The position numbers and the translations under genes are program-made. The notes beneath the pieces were generated by a model. It saw nothing but the letters and a program-made list of their open reading frames with translations. It had not been told where the DNA came from and did not search any database. This document shows, one piece after another, positions 7,641-17,806 of a stretch of 54,483 nt of DNA; the first letter of the stretch is position 1, and each line of letters opens with the position of its first letter. Origin of the DNA: Planctomycetaceae bacterium (GTDB lineage Bacteria; Planctomycetota; Planctomycetia; Pirellulales; PALSA-1355); NCBI GenBank assembly GCA_003153375.1, contig PLYM01000059.1, forward strand, positions 30,187-84,669. The letters are read 5' to 3'.

Positions 7641-8138
7641 GCGACAATTCTGAAGGCGGGCTAGTGCCAAAATGGGCCCATAAATGACACGGCGCCAAGA
7701 ACGACGACTTTCCGGGACCGCCGATCCCCACAGCCGTCCGTCACCGCTGGTCGTAATCCGAGAGGTCGTCTTCGCCGAGCAGCCTCACACATGCCCCGTC
7801 CTCTCGTCGTCAGCTCGGGTTGAAAAAGAGAATGCGAGTGCTCGCGCTCCCCAGGCTGAGCGGCTGGAGAGAGTCGCGCGACCAGCATGAATGTTGAAAT
7901 AGATAAACCACAAAGCTTAACTGCGTGCCAGATGAATAGGAATTATGGGAATCATGGATTGTATATATCGGTGTCGCTAATTTTACGCAGCATTGACAGA
8001 TTCCCATGTCCGCCTAGAATGCCGTCCGCACGATTCAATTTCAACAAGCGGGATGAAATAAGAGTTAGGGGTTGAATGAGCTGACTTTGCGGGCCGAGGT
8101 AAAGCATCACACAGGACCAATACAAAAGGATGACACCG
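7641..8138. other. Non-coding stretch upstream of the beta-helix protein gene
   Basis: About 500 bases with no convincing gene. The part from about 7885 to 8030 is clearly more AT-rich than its surroundings and probably holds the promoter of the gene at 8139. Short frames on both strands lack ribosome binding sites. Confidence 0.4.
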
Positions 8139-10577
8139 ATGTTTGGATTGAACCGTAAAGCGTCCAAGAAAAGGCTCCCAGCCGTCAAACGAATATTACC
8201 GATGCGGTTTCACCCGAGACTCGAAGATTTGGAAGACCGGCGGCTGCTCGCGGTGCTGGCCGTGACCACGACGCTCGATGAATTCCAGCCGGCCGTTGTC
8301 ACGCTCGCGCACCGTTTCGGCACCGACGGCAAGCTTTCGCTCCGCGAAGCGATTTATCTGGCCAATCTCAATCCGGGCCCCGATATCGTCAGCGTGCCCA
8401 CCGGAACGTACAAGATCACCATCGCGGGCGACGGCGAAGATGCCGACGCGACAGGTGACTTTGACGTCCTCGATAACCTCACGATCCAGGCCTCTTCGTC
8501 CAGCGCAAAGCCGATCATTGACGGCAACGGGCTGGATCGGGTGTTCAACATTCCCTCCAGTCACAACGGAATCAGCCTGACGCTGAGCGGACTGACCGTC
8601 ACCGGCGGCATTGCCGAAAGGGCCGGCGGCGACGCCGGCAATGGTGGCGGCGTCGACGCCGAGAGCACTGGCAACAAGCTGACTTTCACCAATACGACCA
8701 TCACCGGCAATATTGCCACGAGCCCCGGCAGCGGAGAAGGTGGCGGAGTTTACAATCTGGCCGGCGACATCGTGCTCAACGGCAGCCACGTCGATAACAA
8801 CCATGCGGCCGCCAACGTAAGCGGAGACGGGGGTGGAATCTACCTGGCGGGTGGGCCGGCGGTCCTCAGCATCACCAACAAGAGCACCGTCAACAATAAC
8901 TCGGCATACAACTCTGGTGGCGGGATCGAGGATCTATCCACGAACGCTTTCACGGTCACCGATAGCCAAGTCAACAACAATCACGCCGGGACCGGTGGTG
9001 GTGGCGCGCTCGTCAATTCGCAGATGATCACCATCACCAACAGCTCATTCACTGGAAATACGTCCGGCGGAGACGGCGCTGGCTTGGACGACGACTTCGG
9101 CGGGACGGGAGGCGTCATCACGCTCACCAAGGCCACGTTCTCGACCAACAGCGCCGTGGGCGATGGTGGTGGCATGGAGGCCGATGACTCGCAAGTGATC
9201 ATCTCCGGTAGCACCTTCTCCGGCAATACCGCAGGCGGAAGCGGCGGCGGCATCTTTAATGCGGCGACCGTCTCCGTGACCAACAGTTCCTTCACCACTA
9301 ACACCGCGACCGGCGGAAATGGCGGCGGCATCGTGCAGGGCCTCGCGGGTGATATCACCATCCAATGCAGCACCTTCACCGGAAATTCAGCTCCGAATGC
9401 CGGTATCGACGCCCAGGGAGGCGCCATCTTTGCCGCCAATTCAATGGGCACTAACCTCATTGACGTCGAGAATAGCACCTTGAAGCAAAACAGTGCGGCC
9501 AGCGACGGCGGCGCGATCTACGCCAACGGCAACAAAGTTGTGGTCAACAAGAGCACCTTCGACCATAACACCGCGACCCAGGGCGAAGGAGGCGCGATCG
9601 ACGACGCGCTCGGCGGAATCGTGGTCACCGATAGCTCCTTCACCAACAACACCTCCAAGGCCGATGGCGGCGGCTTTAGCGCCGATGGTGGCGACGTCAG
9701 CGTGACGCGCGGCATCATCTCGGGCAACATCGCCACCAACGGCATGGGAGGCGGCTTCGCCGCCGGGCAGTCGAACACTGGCATCGTGAGCGTCATTGAC
9801 AGCACGATTTGCAACAACACGGCCGGCGGCAACGGCGGCGGCTTCACCGCCGACGGCGCCACGTTGACGATGACCGGCAGCACGGTCAGCAACAACCGCT
9901 CCGGCTCCGAGGGCGGCGGCATCTACATCGTGACCACCGGTGTCAGCCCCGCGACCCCCACGCCGCTGAACTTTACGCCTGGTTCGCTGATCAGCAACTC
10001 GACGATCGGCGCCAACGGCGCACGGCTCAACGGTGGCGGCATCTACTTCAACGGCGGTGGCGACCTGAGCGATCTGAACCTCTACAACGTCACGATTGCT
10101 TTCAATGCCTCCGCCAACGGTGGCGGCGTGTATCACGACACCGTCGGCACGGTCTACGTGGGGAACACGTTGATCGCCGAGAACACCGCCACCAACGGCC
10201 CGGATGTTTTCGGTGCCTTTACCGAGCGTACCAGCGGCGGTTTCGGCGGCTTCAATCTGATCGGAGCCTTGGACGGCAACGCATCCGGCTTCGCCGACGG
10301 CGTGAACGGCGACCAGGTGGGAACCATTGCCACGCCGATCGATCCCAAGCTGGGACCGTTGCAGAACAACGGCGGGTTGACGCAGACCTATGCCCTGTTG
10401 GCCGGCAGCCCGGCGATCGACAAGGCCCTCAACTCGCAGGCCCCGCTTACCGACCAGCGCGGGGTCTCTCGGCCGCAGCCGGCGGGTGGAACGGCCGATA
10501 TCGGAGCCTACGAATATCAGGCCCCGGTTGTCAAAAAGCCGACGCCGTCGCCCCCGAAGAAGGGCGGCTGGTGGTAA
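8139..10577 (+). CDS. Planctomycete extracellular beta-helix protein (CSLREA / choice-of-anchor Q type)
   Basis: An 812-residue secreted protein. The basic N-terminus runs into the Planctomycete-extracellular motif LEDLEDRRLLAV (residues 28-39; Pfam PF07595 type). A KLSLREAI motif (CSLREA-like) near 65-72 follows, then a long right-handed beta-helix built of repeats with GGG(I/F) turns and TxSxFxxNT strands. The end, PQPAGGTADIGAYEYQ, is the choice-of-anchor Q signature, followed by a proline-lysine tail ending GGWW. Such proteins are thought to be exported surface or matrix proteins. The ATG at 8139 is chosen over 8130 because aaaagg is 9 bases before it, and the paralogous relic at 10735 keeps the same spacing. 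It is host-like cargo inside the element. Confidence 0.9.
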   Translation: MFGLNRKASKKRLPAVKRILPMRFHPRLEDLEDRRLLAVLAVTTTLDEFQPAVVTLAHRFGTDGKLSLREAIYLANLNPGPDIVSVPTGTYKITIAGDGEDADATGDFDVLDNLTIQASSSSAKPIIDGNGLDRVFNIPSSHNGISLTLSGLTVTGGIAERAGGDAGNGGGVDAESTGNKLTFTNTTITGNIATSPGSGEGGGVYNLAGDIVLNGSHVDNNHAAANVSGDGGGIYLAGGPAVLSITNKSTVNNNSAYNSGGGIEDLSTNAFTVTDSQVNNNHAGTGGGGALVNSQMITITNSSFTGNTSGGDGAGLDDDFGGTGGVITLTKATFSTNSAVGDGGGMEADDSQVIISGSTFSGNTAGGSGGGIFNAATVSVTNSSFTTNTATGGNGGGIVQGLAGDITIQCSTFTGNSAPNAGIDAQGGAIFAANSMGTNLIDVENSTLKQNSAASDGGAIYANGNKVVVNKSTFDHNTATQGEGGAIDDALGGIVVTDSSFTNNTSKADGGGFSADGGDVSVTRGIISGNIATNGMGGGFAAGQSNTGIVSVIDSTICNNTAGGNGGGFTADGATLTMTGSTVSNNRSGSEGGGIYIVTTGVSPATPTPLNFTPGSLISNSTIGANGARLNGGGIYFNGGGDLSDLNLYNVTIAFNASANGGGVYHDTVGTVYVGNTLIAENTATNGPDVFGAFTERTSGGFGGFNLIGALDGNASGFADGVNGDQVGTIATPIDPKLGPLQNNGGLTQTYALLAGSPAIDKALNSQAPLTDQRGVSRPQPAGGTADIGAYEYQAPVVKKPTPSPPKKGGWW

Positions 10578-10639: not shown

Positions 10640-10682
10640 CAGCTCGCCCCCAAGCTCGGGCAATGGGGCGAGCTGTTTTTGT
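10640..10682 (+). terminator. Intrinsic terminator of the beta-helix protein gene
   Basis: A perfect 11-bp stem (cagctcgcccc at 10640-10650 with ggggcgagctg at 10665-10675) is followed directly by five T and TGTT. It lies about 60 bases after the stop codon at 10577. Confidence 0.88.
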
Positions 10683-10721
10683 TCTCCTGCGGCGACAGCA
10701 TTCCTCTACCCAGTCAGCACA

Positions 10722-10847
10722 AAAGGATGACACCGTGTTCGGATCGAGTCGCAAAGCATAAAGAAAGAAACGCCCCCCGCCCAAAAGGAACGCTGCCGAT
10801 GCGATTCAGCCCGGGCGTCGAAATGCTGGAAGACCGGCGGCACAGTT
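10722..10847 (+). pseudogene. 5' fragment of a second Planctomycete-extracellular gene
   Basis: A decayed copy of the start of the gene at 8139. The leader aaaaggatgacacc is repeated, followed by GTG TTC GGA in place of ATG TTT GGA, the basic stretch and, after a frameshift, CCGATGCGATTCAGCCCGGG leading to the codons for LEDRR. An in-frame TAA interrupts it at the ninth codon and similarity stops at about 10847, right after the export motif. Only the targeting segment is left. This suggests a tandem paralogue was deleted, or that the export-signal cassette was duplicated. Confidence 0.8.
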
Positions 10848-11152
10848 GACCCCCGGTGAATGCCCCGACACTCCTATTTGAGTGATTCGATAAAGAGAAT
10901 TCAATCCGACGTTCGCCAACCGGGGGCTGTCGCACAATTGGTTCCTTTTCTTTGAGCGATATCCAGTTCCGCGCGTGGATCAACGACGCTCGGCAATTCC
11001 GGTCCGATATTCTCATCTCGCAATTCAAAGTCCCGAGAAGCCGTCAACTTGGGAACCGCCGCGATTGCGAGGGCACGACACCAATCGGCGCCAGCATCGC
11101 GCGGCGAACGGGCTCAGGCAGCGAGGGCCAAGCGGCGACGATTCGGCAGCCG
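10848..11152. other. Non-coding stretch with an integrase-tail-like relic
   Basis: No complete gene. On the minus strand 11086-11144 reads RIVAAWPSLPEPVRRAML, matching the tail motif in the excised-form integrase; it has no start and the frame soon drifts. The rest shows nothing I can assign. Confidence 0.5.
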
Positions 11153-14961: not shown

Positions 14962-17409
14962 TCACCACCAGACTTCGGTGCGCAGCAAGTGGAGCATGCG
15001 TTTGAGGACAAACTGGCCCACGGGCACCGAATCGCAGTAAATGCGGGCGTAGCCGCCCATGCCGCTACGAAGCTGGTCGTTCGGTTCGCGGACCGTGGCA
15101 TAGACCTTGAACGTGTTCTGCAGCTCACCGGTCTCGCCGCGCGAGGCCACGCGAATGACGTCGGCCTGAAAGATGTCGAAGGGAATGGCCCTGGCCTTCA
15201 AGTAGACGACCTGTCCGGTCCGGATCGGGGCGGCTTCCTGATCGGGCACGGTGATCTCGACTTCGAGGGCCGTTTGATCTTCGACCTCGCAGATCAGTTC
15301 GCCTTGCTGGAAATACTGACCGATCTTTTGCTTCAGCCGGGGCGTGATCATGACTCCGGTCAACGGCGTGACGAGCGGCAGTTTTTCCTGCAAGCTCTTC
15401 AGATAATCGAGCTCGACTTGCAGGCGGGCCAATAGGGCCTCGGCGGCGGCGATTTCCTCGGGCCGATTGCCAATCTCCATCAGCTTGAGCTTGGATTTCT
15501 CCTCGGCCAATTCGCGCTCCCGAGTGCCCAGTATCGCTTCCGCGTCCAGCGTGCCCAGCGATTTGAGCGACGCTTTATCCGCCCGGGTCTGCGCGCACTT
15601 GGCGTTACAGATCTCATAGTCACGCTTCTTGTCGCCGTACTCCTGCGGGCTGATGGTCTTGGACTTCATCAGGCTCTCGGAGCGGGCCAAGACCGCGGCC
15701 GCCTGGGCTCGCTCGGCCTCGTTTTGGGCCAGCGTTTGATCCAGCCGAATCAGTTGCTGCTCGAACGACTGGCGACGGTGGACTAGGTCTTGAGCGGACG
15801 TCTTGCGCCATTGCTCAGCACGTTCGACGCGATTGCGCTGTTCGCTGAGAATCTCCGAGCGCGAGCCAAGTCGCAGCACGTTCAGTTTGGCTTGCCCTTC
15901 GTGTACCTCGGCTTCTTTTTGCTCGACCTTGCTTTGCAGATCGGGCACGGCCATCCGAGCGACGAGCGTGCCGGCCTTGACCTCCTGACCCTCTTCAAAG
16001 TTAACGTCGTGCAGGAAACCCGAGACCTCGGCGCGAATCTCGTGCCGCTTGGTGGGCTTGATTTCGAAGACGCCGTTGGCCCGATCCGACATGGGAATGA
16101 GCGTCAACGCCGCAATGGTGCCGAAAATGAGGCTCAACCAAATGGCGGCCCGCAGATGTTTCTTCAGCAGCAGTACGATCCCGGTTTCTCCGGTAAACAC
16201 GTCGCGAAACAACGTGTTCCCGACCAGCATCGCCAACGGCACGACCATCCCCACGCCCAGGCCTCCCAGATGCTTGGCCCAAAACTTTCCCATCCACCAG
16301 AACATCAGGCAGACGATCACGATCGAGAACGTCCAACTGCACATCCCATAGAAGAACAGGAACTTGGGATGCGAGGGCCGCTTGGGCCGCGGACCACCCC
16401 ATAATACCGCGCGGAGATGCGACATCCAATGAAAGTAAGCGGTCTGCGAGAGATTGGGGATCTCGAGATAGTCTCCCAACAGGTAATACCCGTCCAGCTT
16501 AATGACCGGGTTCAGATTAAACAGGCTGCGGAGGCCGGTAACCGAGAGCACGACCGTGGACAGGTAGCTCAGCAGGCTATCTTGGTAGGCAATGCGCCAA
16601 ACGAAGATCGCCAGCGACCACAGGCACAAATCGCAATAAGCTCCCGCGGCCGTGATCCACAGTCGTTTCGACTTTTCCTTGATCAGCCAAGCATCGGAGA
16701 CATTGCAATAAAATCCGGGCATCAGATAGAGGGCCAAGAAGCCCACTTCATGCACTTCGCCCCCGTGGCGCTTACAGGTCAGACCGTGGGCGAATTCGTG
16801 AAACGTCGTCACGGTCAGCACGGTAATGGCCGCGAAAAACAGCGTCTCCCAGCGGAGCGAGTTCTTGAACGAATCGACGATGGCGCCGTTGTTGGTCCAA
16901 AAGACCACCTGGGCCACCAGGAAGAAGCTGAACGAGACCGCCAGAAAGGTCGACGTCCAAACCCACCACAATTTCGGGCAGAGGAAGTTGAACAGGCGAT
17001 CGGGATCGAACAGTTTCTTGCGCCAAAAGAACAGACTTTGCTGCGACGTTTTCGGAACGACGTTCCGGGGCCGAGGCTTGGCGGGCTGCCCGGCGGGGCG
17101 CACGCCATCGGGCCAATCGATCTCGGGCAGCGCCTCGGGGGCCAACAGGCCCTGCGAGTCGGCGACCATCAAGAACCCGCTCAGATCGTCGGGCGAAAAG
17201 GGCTCGCCAAAGCGTGTGGCGAACTCCCGGCAAATATCCTCGCTGGTCTGTTGACCATCGAGCCGCAACAAGAGAAATGACTCATGTTGCCCAAGCTGGA
17301 AATAGCGTTCCGTCTCGGGATCCTTGACAACGTGACGCCCCTCTTCTCCCAGCGGTCGGATAAGAAGCTCGGGACGGCGCGGTCGCGGAATAGTTACGGT
17401 TGCCGACAT
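14962..17409 (-). CDS. PqqD-like / M50 metalloprotease / HlyD fusion (peptide protease-exporter)
   Basis: An 815-residue membrane protein of fused parts. Residues about 20-95 resemble a PqqD/RRE-like peptide-binding domain (YFQLGQHESFLLLRLDGQQT). Next is an M50 site-2-type zinc protease with several membrane helices: HEFAH at 204-208, GGEVHEVGFLALYLMPGFYC, and the third ligand region NLNPVIKLDGYYLLGD near 305. The last 370 residues are a HlyD-type adaptor: a lipoyl-like half (SGFLHDVNFEEGQEVKAG), a long coiled coil (about 490-660) and a beta-barrel end. Such fusions (compare YydH-type peptide zinc metalloproteases plus HlyD) are expected to cut and export peptides. The 54-residue peptide gene directly upstream is the likely substrate. 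ATG at 17409 is preferred; a TTG at 17427 is possible. Confidence 0.9.
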   Translation of the reverse strand: MSATVTIPRPRRPELLIRPLGEEGRHVVKDPETERYFQLGQHESFLLLRLDGQQTSEDICREFATRFGEPFSPDDLSGFLMVADSQGLLAPEALPEIDWPDGVRPAGQPAKPRPRNVVPKTSQQSLFFWRKKLFDPDRLFNFLCPKLWWVWTSTFLAVSFSFFLVAQVVFWTNNGAIVDSFKNSLRWETLFFAAITVLTVTTFHEFAHGLTCKRHGGEVHEVGFLALYLMPGFYCNVSDAWLIKEKSKRLWITAAGAYCDLCLWSLAIFVWRIAYQDSLLSYLSTVVLSVTGLRSLFNLNPVIKLDGYYLLGDYLEIPNLSQTAYFHWMSHLRAVLWGGPRPKRPSHPKFLFFYGMCSWTFSIVIVCLMFWWMGKFWAKHLGGLGVGMVVPLAMLVGNTLFRDVFTGETGIVLLLKKHLRAAIWLSLIFGTIAALTLIPMSDRANGVFEIKPTKRHEIRAEVSGFLHDVNFEEGQEVKAGTLVARMAVPDLQSKVEQKEAEVHEGQAKLNVLRLGSRSEILSEQRNRVERAEQWRKTSAQDLVHRRQSFEQQLIRLDQTLAQNEAERAQAAAVLARSESLMKSKTISPQEYGDKKRDYEICNAKCAQTRADKASLKSLGTLDAEAILGTRERELAEEKSKLKLMEIGNRPEEIAAAEALLARLQVELDYLKSLQEKLPLVTPLTGVMITPRLKQKIGQYFQQGELICEVEDQTALEVEITVPDQEAAPIRTGQVVYLKARAIPFDIFQADVIRVASRGETGELQNTFKVYATVREPNDQLRSGMGGYARIYCDSVPVGQFVLKRMLHLLRTEVWW

Positions 17410-17442
17410 GATTTTGACCAGCAACAACGAGGCCGATCATAA

Positions 17443-17481
17443 AAGCACCCCAGGCCAAGATCCGAAAATCCTGGCCTGGGG
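17443..17481 (-). terminator. Hairpin attenuator between peptide and exporter genes
   Basis: A perfect 10-bp stem (ccccaggcca at 17448-17457 with tggcctgggg at 17472-17481). On the minus strand it is followed by TGCTTTTATG. The T tract is short, so it is probably leaky. This arrangement (precursor, leaky terminator, exporter) is common where the peptide must be made in excess. Confidence 0.65.
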
Positions 17482-17524
17482 GTTATTGGAAGAGAGTCTA
17501 GCGTTATTCCCTCGTTCGCAGCAA

Positions 17525-17689
17525 TTAGTGCGACAGGCTGATCGTGGTACCGCCAGCGCTCGAGACAGCCGACAGCGAGTAGCCGAAGAGCGAGTAGCTG
17601 TAGTTAATGTGGATCTTCGGGATGAAGTAGCTGTAGCTGAACGGCGCAATCCGGTCTTCCAACTGATCAATCTTGAAACGGTTTTCCAT
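17525..17689 (-). CDS. 54-residue LEDRIAP-motif peptide, candidate precursor of a secreted/RiPP-like peptide
   Basis: A 54-residue protein with a very good ribosome binding site (GGAGG, 8 bases before ATG at 17689). The N-terminal part FKIDQLEDRIAP (5-16) resembles the LExRIAP motif I know from short planctomycete proteins and would serve as leader or recognition site. The rest (17-54) is rich in Ser, Tyr and other aromatics, with alternating polar and hydrophobic residues (FSYSYF, NYSYSLFGYSLS), then AVSSAGGTTISLSH. There is no cysteine and no membrane helix. It sits 115 bases upstream of a PqqD-like/M50/HlyD exporter with an attenuator between. No modifying enzyme (radical SAM, YcaO, LanM) is visible nearby, so it may be simply cut and exported. 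Confidence 0.75.
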   Translation of the reverse strand: MENRFKIDQLEDRIAPFSYSYFIPKIHINYSYSLFGYSLSAVSSAGGTTISLSH

Positions 17690-17778
17690 CGCGGACACCT
17701 CCACCTAACAACAGGGAAACGGAGTAAACTCCAAAACCAGAAATCCTAGAAACCCCTGGAATTTGGAACAGTGACGCC

Positions 17779-17806
17779 ATTCTATCGGCTGTAAAAACAA
17801 ATGCAA
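17779..17806 (-). promoter_or_regulatory. Candidate sigma-70-type promoter of the peptide/exporter genes
   Basis: On the minus strand TTGCAT (17806-17801), a 16-base spacer and TAGAAT (17784-17779) lie about 90 bases upstream of the peptide start, in an AT-rich stretch. The match is good for a GC-rich genome, but planctomycete promoters are poorly defined. Confidence 0.4.

Follow-up and report, generated by a model that had tools for sequence, protein, structure and literature searches.

The 54-codon frame on the minus strand at positions 17525 to 17689 of the window, the whole 54,483-nucleotide stretch of planctomycete DNA that was analyzed, is, judged by its sequence, a real gene; it belongs to an unnamed peptide family whose small members have the N-terminal motif LE-x-RIAP in common. 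We consider it fairly probable that its product is a precursor that gives rise to a secreted, leader-cleaved peptide, and that this is handled by the product of the adjoining gene, a PqqD-M50-HlyD fusion protein. LE-x-RIAP peptides accompany this fusion gene in about ten phyla, a distribution that suggests a peptide-secretion system which is widespread and has yet to be described. The features of the window that bear on this reading are as follows.

17525..17689, minus strand: leader peptide gene, 54 amino acids, MENRFKIDQLEDRIAPFSYSYFIPKIHINYSYSLFGYSLSAVSSAGGTTISLSH; ATG start, TAA stop
17642..17689, minus strand: leader, residues 1 to 16, MENRFKIDQLEDRIAP; fits the relatives' pattern [FL]-x-[ILVM]-x-x-L-E-x-R-[IV]-[AV]-P
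17528..17641, minus strand: core, residues 17 to 54; rich in Ser, Tyr, and Gly, with alternating hydrophobic residues
17698..17702, minus strand: Shine-Dalgarno sequence GGAGG, 8 nt 5' of the ATG
17448..17481, minus strand: intrinsic terminator with a 15-pair stem and a T-rich tail, separating the peptide gene from the fusion gene
14962..17409, minus strand: PqqD-M50-HlyD fusion, 815 amino acids, directly downstream of the peptide gene
17143..17334, minus strand: PqqD-like domain (residues 26 to 89), candidate leader-binding domain; PF05402, 22.0 bits
16786..16800, minus strand: M50 active-site HEFAH (residues 204 to 208)
15058..16044, minus strand: HlyD-type periplasmic adaptor region (residues 456 to 784)

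A preliminary description of this DNA had proposed the frame, a strong ribosome binding site, a plausible promoter, and a leader-like LEDRIAP element. Coordinates, sequence, and stop codon of the frame were all reproduced, as was the GGAGG ahead of its ATG. The promoter was not supported: the sole sigma-70-like site found (18022-17993) lies at the level of shuffled sequence (1 site versus 0.6 expected). The terminator at 17481 to 17448 is absent from that description. A tblastn search with the 54-amino-acid protein yielded no direct relatives, and no homologue of the 38-residue core was found. Since the core has no relatives, the status of the gene was judged on the leader. LEDRIAP corresponds to a conserved N-terminal element of short frames beside orthologous fusions, and it is this conservation, together with the use of different synonymous codons for the invariant residues, that places the peptide frame above chance. 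The window genome contains one LE-x-RIAP peptide.

The fusion directly downstream of the peptide was present as previously described, with the PqqD part falling just below the Pfam cutoff. Its match to PF05402 (PqqD) scored 22.0 bits versus a cutoff of 23.4, covering model positions 2 to 67 of 67 with an E value of 2e-4. PF02163 (Peptidase_M50) scored 28.7 versus 27.2, and membership in M50 is backed by HExxH and NPxxxxDG; residues H204, E205, H208, N298, P301, D306, and G307 are invariant among 25 orthologues. The HlyD part matched PF13437 with 49.3 versus a cutoff of 22.2, and PF16576 matched too. Two further PqqD-M50-HlyD genes of approximately 30% identity are carried by the window genome. 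The arrangement expected of a RiPP locus, a short precursor with a conserved leader adjoining a protein with a PqqD/RRE-like domain, was found, with the PqqD match being marginal.

Co-occurrence of short LExRIAP frames with M50-HlyD genes in other genomes, on which the preliminary description had staked its proposal, was found in planctomycetes and far beyond. Within the order, homologues of the fusion were detected in 184 of 196 genomes at E values up to 1e-30. A full-length orthologue was present in 12 of the 196, namely, the window's own and eleven at 33 to 45% identity; the remaining matches were paralogues of approximately 30% identity. Eleven of the 12 genomes with a full-length orthologue carried short leader frames, and for 10 of the 12 orthologues a short F.[IML]..LE[EDP]R[IV][ATV]P frame lay within approximately 1.5 kb. 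In one genome (G004), the leader frames were located on contigs other than that of the orthologue; the sole orthologue-bearing genome among the 12 in which no leader frame was found was G029. None of the paralogue loci in the order had an adjoining leader frame. At locus L067 (14444-17970), a general 740-amino-acid PqqD-M50-HlyD paralogue and a second HlyD gene adjoin the peptide system.

A stringent DNA pattern encoding LE[DE]RIAP matched 24 of the 196 order genomes, compared with 4 genomes for the reversed-pattern control. When read in frame, it formed the N terminus of short frames in six genomes, all six of which carry the orthologue; the hypergeometric chance of drawing 6 of 6 from 12 among 196 is approximately 1e-8, a value that overstates independence because the genomes are related. 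At the class level, the pattern F.[IML]..LE.R[IV][ATV]P matched 23 of 397 genomes (control, one genome). N-terminal short leader frames were present in 18 of these, each with the orthologue (18/18) and mostly within 2 kb of it; the other five had the motif on large exoproteins and only the 30%-identity paralogue. Phylum-wide, the leader pattern is rare.

A profile built from 25 fusion orthologues retrieved 80 loci, spread over many phyla, from GTDB genomes, with phylum labels as given in the sequence record titles. A same-strand leader frame was found within 2.5 kb upstream of the fusion or just downstream at 51 of the 80 loci; two more had tandem 31-amino-acid frames nearby on the opposite strand, bringing the total to 53 of 80. 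No leader frames away from the fusion were found at these loci. Genomes without a leader frame near the fusion often had one elsewhere in the genome. Deep-branching fusion homologues that lie in a conserved housekeeping gene order (Zixibacteria and one acidobacterial clade) mostly had no such frame, and in a tree of 78 fusion proteins the peptide-less groups formed separate clades, with the window placed within a planctomycete clade. In two members of the peptide-less acidobacterial clade (L211, position ~108; L224, position ~5291), a frame with the pattern SI.KAG...FC.....SLEP[RK][VM]NSPAGI was observed upstream of the fusion and may represent another type of precursor.

Among 74 distinct leader frames, L, E, and P were invariant, and R, I, and A were retained in 73, 71, and 66 frames, respectively. 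Each of the conserved residues was encoded by several synonymous codons, which indicates that selection acts on the peptide. Many of the GTDB loci contain two to four peptides each, and the peptide genes of L177 and L179 are identical. Most cores span 30 to 200 residues, and many are repetitive. Some are nearly unchanged between phyla: GNPGNNNPPLNNTNNPGNEGTGG.VSTG is shared by Gemmataceae, Acidobacteria, Rokubacteria, and Eisenbacteria, and FPPGQFPSGNPAHAPG.SNPN[ED]VPATNP, GYEGQPGNQ, and NHNAVPNGAIPEGPAGN are further cores of this type. Terminators were found 3' of 11 of 66 peptide genes versus 1.1 expected in shuffled sequences, an excess that fits a product made in surplus over its exporter. 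The system is carried by the cultured strains Adhaeretor mobilis HG15A2, Limnoglobus roseus PX52, and Rhodopirellula maiorica SM1.

Several loci depart from this picture in their peptides. L198 (8332-8685) and L203 (7837-8315) contain three to four tandem 31-amino-acid frames, MAKKSTKKVVKLNVERLEKRIAPTRAAIAMG, spaced by approximately 129 nt and located approximately 2.4 kb from the fusion start, each composed of the leader and the eight-residue core TRAAIAMG. In L150 (3776-5139; genome G792), two adjacent leader proteins carry long acidic repeats (VDETP, SEDVPSDDTP) in place of basic ones. L163 (4725-5243) and L148 (335-868) encode divergent leader-bearing proteins of 170 to 180 amino acids (LEDRVAPNSLLWQGGLVEVL... 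and LEERIVPDCLFWQGALLDGV...), which are similar to each other and lie opposite a repeat-core peptide.

Gene neighborhoods of the fusion were inspected for export and modification partners. An outer-membrane efflux protein (PF02321) adjoins the fusion in 25 GTDB loci, mostly in convergent orientation; in the window, an outer-membrane channel gene is not next door. Conserved neighbors included neither an ABC or other transporter ATPase nor an RND or MFS partner, and no radical SAM gene. Two partner families with a [DN]GxHRA motif recurred, neither of which has a Pfam family. The smaller, approximately 150 amino acids long with a conserved DG[HN]HRA, immediately precedes the fusion gene in most planctomycete loci and was not found in the window genome. 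The larger, approximately 340 amino acids long, belongs to a different family with NG[TSN]HRA[YF] and is located directly downstream of the fusion in Verrucomicrobiota, Rokubacteria, Acidobacteriota, Nitrospirota, and others.

Presence of a partner coincided with the composition of the core. Peptide loci with a partner had cores rich in Ser/Thr and Lys/Arg/His in 22 of 27 cases, compared with 1 of 26 loci without a partner, and in that single case the contig ends 200 bases past the fusion. Fisher's test of the association gave P = 4e-9; the loci are phylogenetically clustered, so that the independent events are few, about two or more. The pairing of Ser/Thr and Lys/His repeat cores with one of two [DN]GxHRA partner families is new here. 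In the window, neither a repeat core nor a [DN]GxHRA partner was found, and no candidate modifying enzyme is linked to the peptide.

The small partner of the repeat-core relatives is predicted to adopt a ParB/sulfiredoxin fold. Its structure model (pLDDT 84) aligned with sulfiredoxin (Z score, 5.6), SerK (4.8), and SbnI (4.0); these Z scores are modest, and the list is uniform, consisting almost throughout of ParB/sulfiredoxin superfamily members, including ParB, Noc, and KorB. The top eight Foldseek matches were sulfiredoxins (best E value, 0.027), and a search of a viral library likewise returned ParB/Srx proteins. The model of the 340-amino-acid partner was poor (pLDDT 40); its top PDB match by hmmsearch was SerK, a weak match (E = 0.22) in which DGHHR aligned with NGSHR. 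SerK, SbnI, and sulfiredoxin bind ATP via the ParB/sulfiredoxin fold (PMC12704722).

In the mechanism that we propose, the PqqD-like domain of the fusion would bind the 16-residue leader, its M50 intramembrane metalloprotease would cut the precursor, and the HlyD adaptor would hand the 38-residue core on to an outer-membrane channel of the TolC type. Cleavage of precursors by M50 proteases has precedents in the epipeptide and pearlin systems, and a role in both cutting and export is assumed for EpeP (PMC10885120). In relatives with Ser/Thr-Lys/His repeat cores, the ParB/sulfiredoxin-fold protein probably modifies the core first, perhaps by phosphorylation. The window product itself is probably an unmodified, leader-cleaved peptide, since no modifying enzyme is linked to it. 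Against this mechanism stand the PqqD-like match just below the Pfam cutoff, the lack among conserved neighbors of an ABC, RND, or MFS partner that would supply energy for export, the lack of relatives of the window's core, the occurrence of some leader frames unlinked to the fusion, and the orthologue-bearing genome G029, in which no leader frame was found. A broader version of this scheme is possible but rather doubtful: the peptides would form a multi-phylum LE-x-RIAP class with a dedicated, ABC-free PqqD-M50-HlyD machine for cutting and export, and two separately evolved ParB/sulfiredoxin-fold enzymes would phosphorylate Ser/Thr of basic repeat cores, yielding bacterial silaffin-like phosphopeptides.

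It should be noted that the motif itself may be a wider sorting signal, since N termini of the LE[DEP]R type are also seen on large exoproteins where the genome has no orthologue. In that case, LEDRIAP could be a variant of the N-terminal motif by which planctomycete exoproteins are sorted in general (PF07595-like, LEDRRLLA); the peptides would be small exoproteins that use a common sorting route, with several machines of this type, the fusion among them. In agreement with this, F.IE.LEDR[IV][TV]P N termini are present on large exoproteins (L078, L080, L082, L084, L085, and L239); the same reading is favored by the LEDLEDRRLLA in the window at 8130-10577, the 50 PF07595 matches in the window genome, and the near-universal presence of PqqD-M50-HlyD paralogues of approximately 30% identity across the order. 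However, the window peptide matched no Pfam family at E values up to 1, PF07595 included, short leader frames follow the orthologue and not the paralogue, and LE-x-RIAP peptides also occur outside Planctomycetota. We regard a general sorting signal as an unlikely account of the peptides. With regard to the wider idea that PqqD-M50-HlyD machines might serve every LE[DEP]R exoprotein, PF07595 (E < 0.01) was found at the phylum level in 10 genomes, 5 of which have a PqqD-M50-HlyD homologue versus 26 of 139 others. The frame at 8130-10577 (plus strand) encodes an 815-amino-acid exoprotein whose LEDLEDRRLLA N terminus is PF07595-like (E = 0.09) and which contains Chlamydia PMP-type repeats. A 56-codon frame at 10679-10849 (plus strand) ends just past MRFSPGVEMLEDRRHS and looks like the broken N terminus of another LEDRR exoprotein.

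Two further readings keep the link between peptide and fusion and assign the peptide another role. It might regulate the fusion, with the leader occupying the PqqD-like domain and thereby controlling the M50 protease, and without any secreted product. Close linkage, small size, and the peptide's own terminator would suit such a regulator, but products are the better fit for loci with up to four different peptides, for highly variable cores, long S/K repeats among them, and for the conservation of some cores from phylum to phylum. We consider regulation quite improbable. Still less probable, and in our view very much so, is a precursor of an M50-processed signal (pheromone) whose core is trimmed to a short active peptide. 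M50 proteases do process peptide precursors (PMC10885120), and the tandem frames of L198 and L203 end in an eight-residue core; however, no receptor or response gene was found as a conserved neighbor of the fusion, and the usual length and repetitiveness of the cores also argue against it. The secreted, leader-cleaved peptide is the preferred reading.

No Pfam or NCBIfam model matched the peptides or the two [DN]GxHRA partner families. Literature searches covering the motif, peptide systems built around PqqD-M50-HlyD, and silaffin-like peptides of planctomycetes found nothing relevant. Where "leeriap" turned up in papers, the letters matched by chance. As the peptides are described by none of the library models or papers found, the earlier label of a candidate new RiPP-like system was kept. 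If the preferred reading is right, it provides a function for a large group of PqqD-M50-HlyD proteins that are now annotated by their parts alone and brings to light small secreted peptides that are widespread in phyla with few cultured members and that gene callers and RiPP miners can pass over. The link between the ParB/Srx fold and peptides with Ser-Lys repeats suggests that a fold known from free serine kinases and CTP switches may also serve to modify peptides.

Among known systems, PF07595 proteins (LEDRRLL N termini) share an N-terminal LE[DEP]R signal and are abundant in the window genome; they differ in that the peptide gives no match to the family and that the short RIAP peptides track one PqqD-M50-HlyD orthologue. 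The free serine kinases SerK and SbnI (PMC12704722) resemble the small partner in predicted fold and in a DGxHR-type motif, whereas the small partner lacks a Pfam match and its proposed substrate is a peptide. In the epipeptide system (YydF/EpeX with the M50 protease YydH/EpeP), a short precursor likewise adjoins an M50 intramembrane protease, which is presumed to be responsible for its cleavage and export (PMC10885120). The epipeptide protease model NF058609 (YydH/LiaK) matched the M50 part of the fusion weakly (E = 1.6e-9; score, 37.8 versus a cutoff of 225), and the present system lacks radical SAM epimerase and ABC genes among its conserved neighbors, has PqqD and HlyD in one fused protein, and carries LE-x-RIAP as its leader. 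The daptide HExxH protease (NF041824) has the same PqqD and M50 layout and aligned with fusion residues 21 to 396 (E = 1.2e-54), with a score of 185.9 versus a cutoff of 300; unlike in daptide systems, HlyD is fused here, and no daptide-type modifying genes were seen among the conserved neighbors. The system would work like the cut-and-export part of epipeptide and daptide systems and scores below the membership cutoffs of both.
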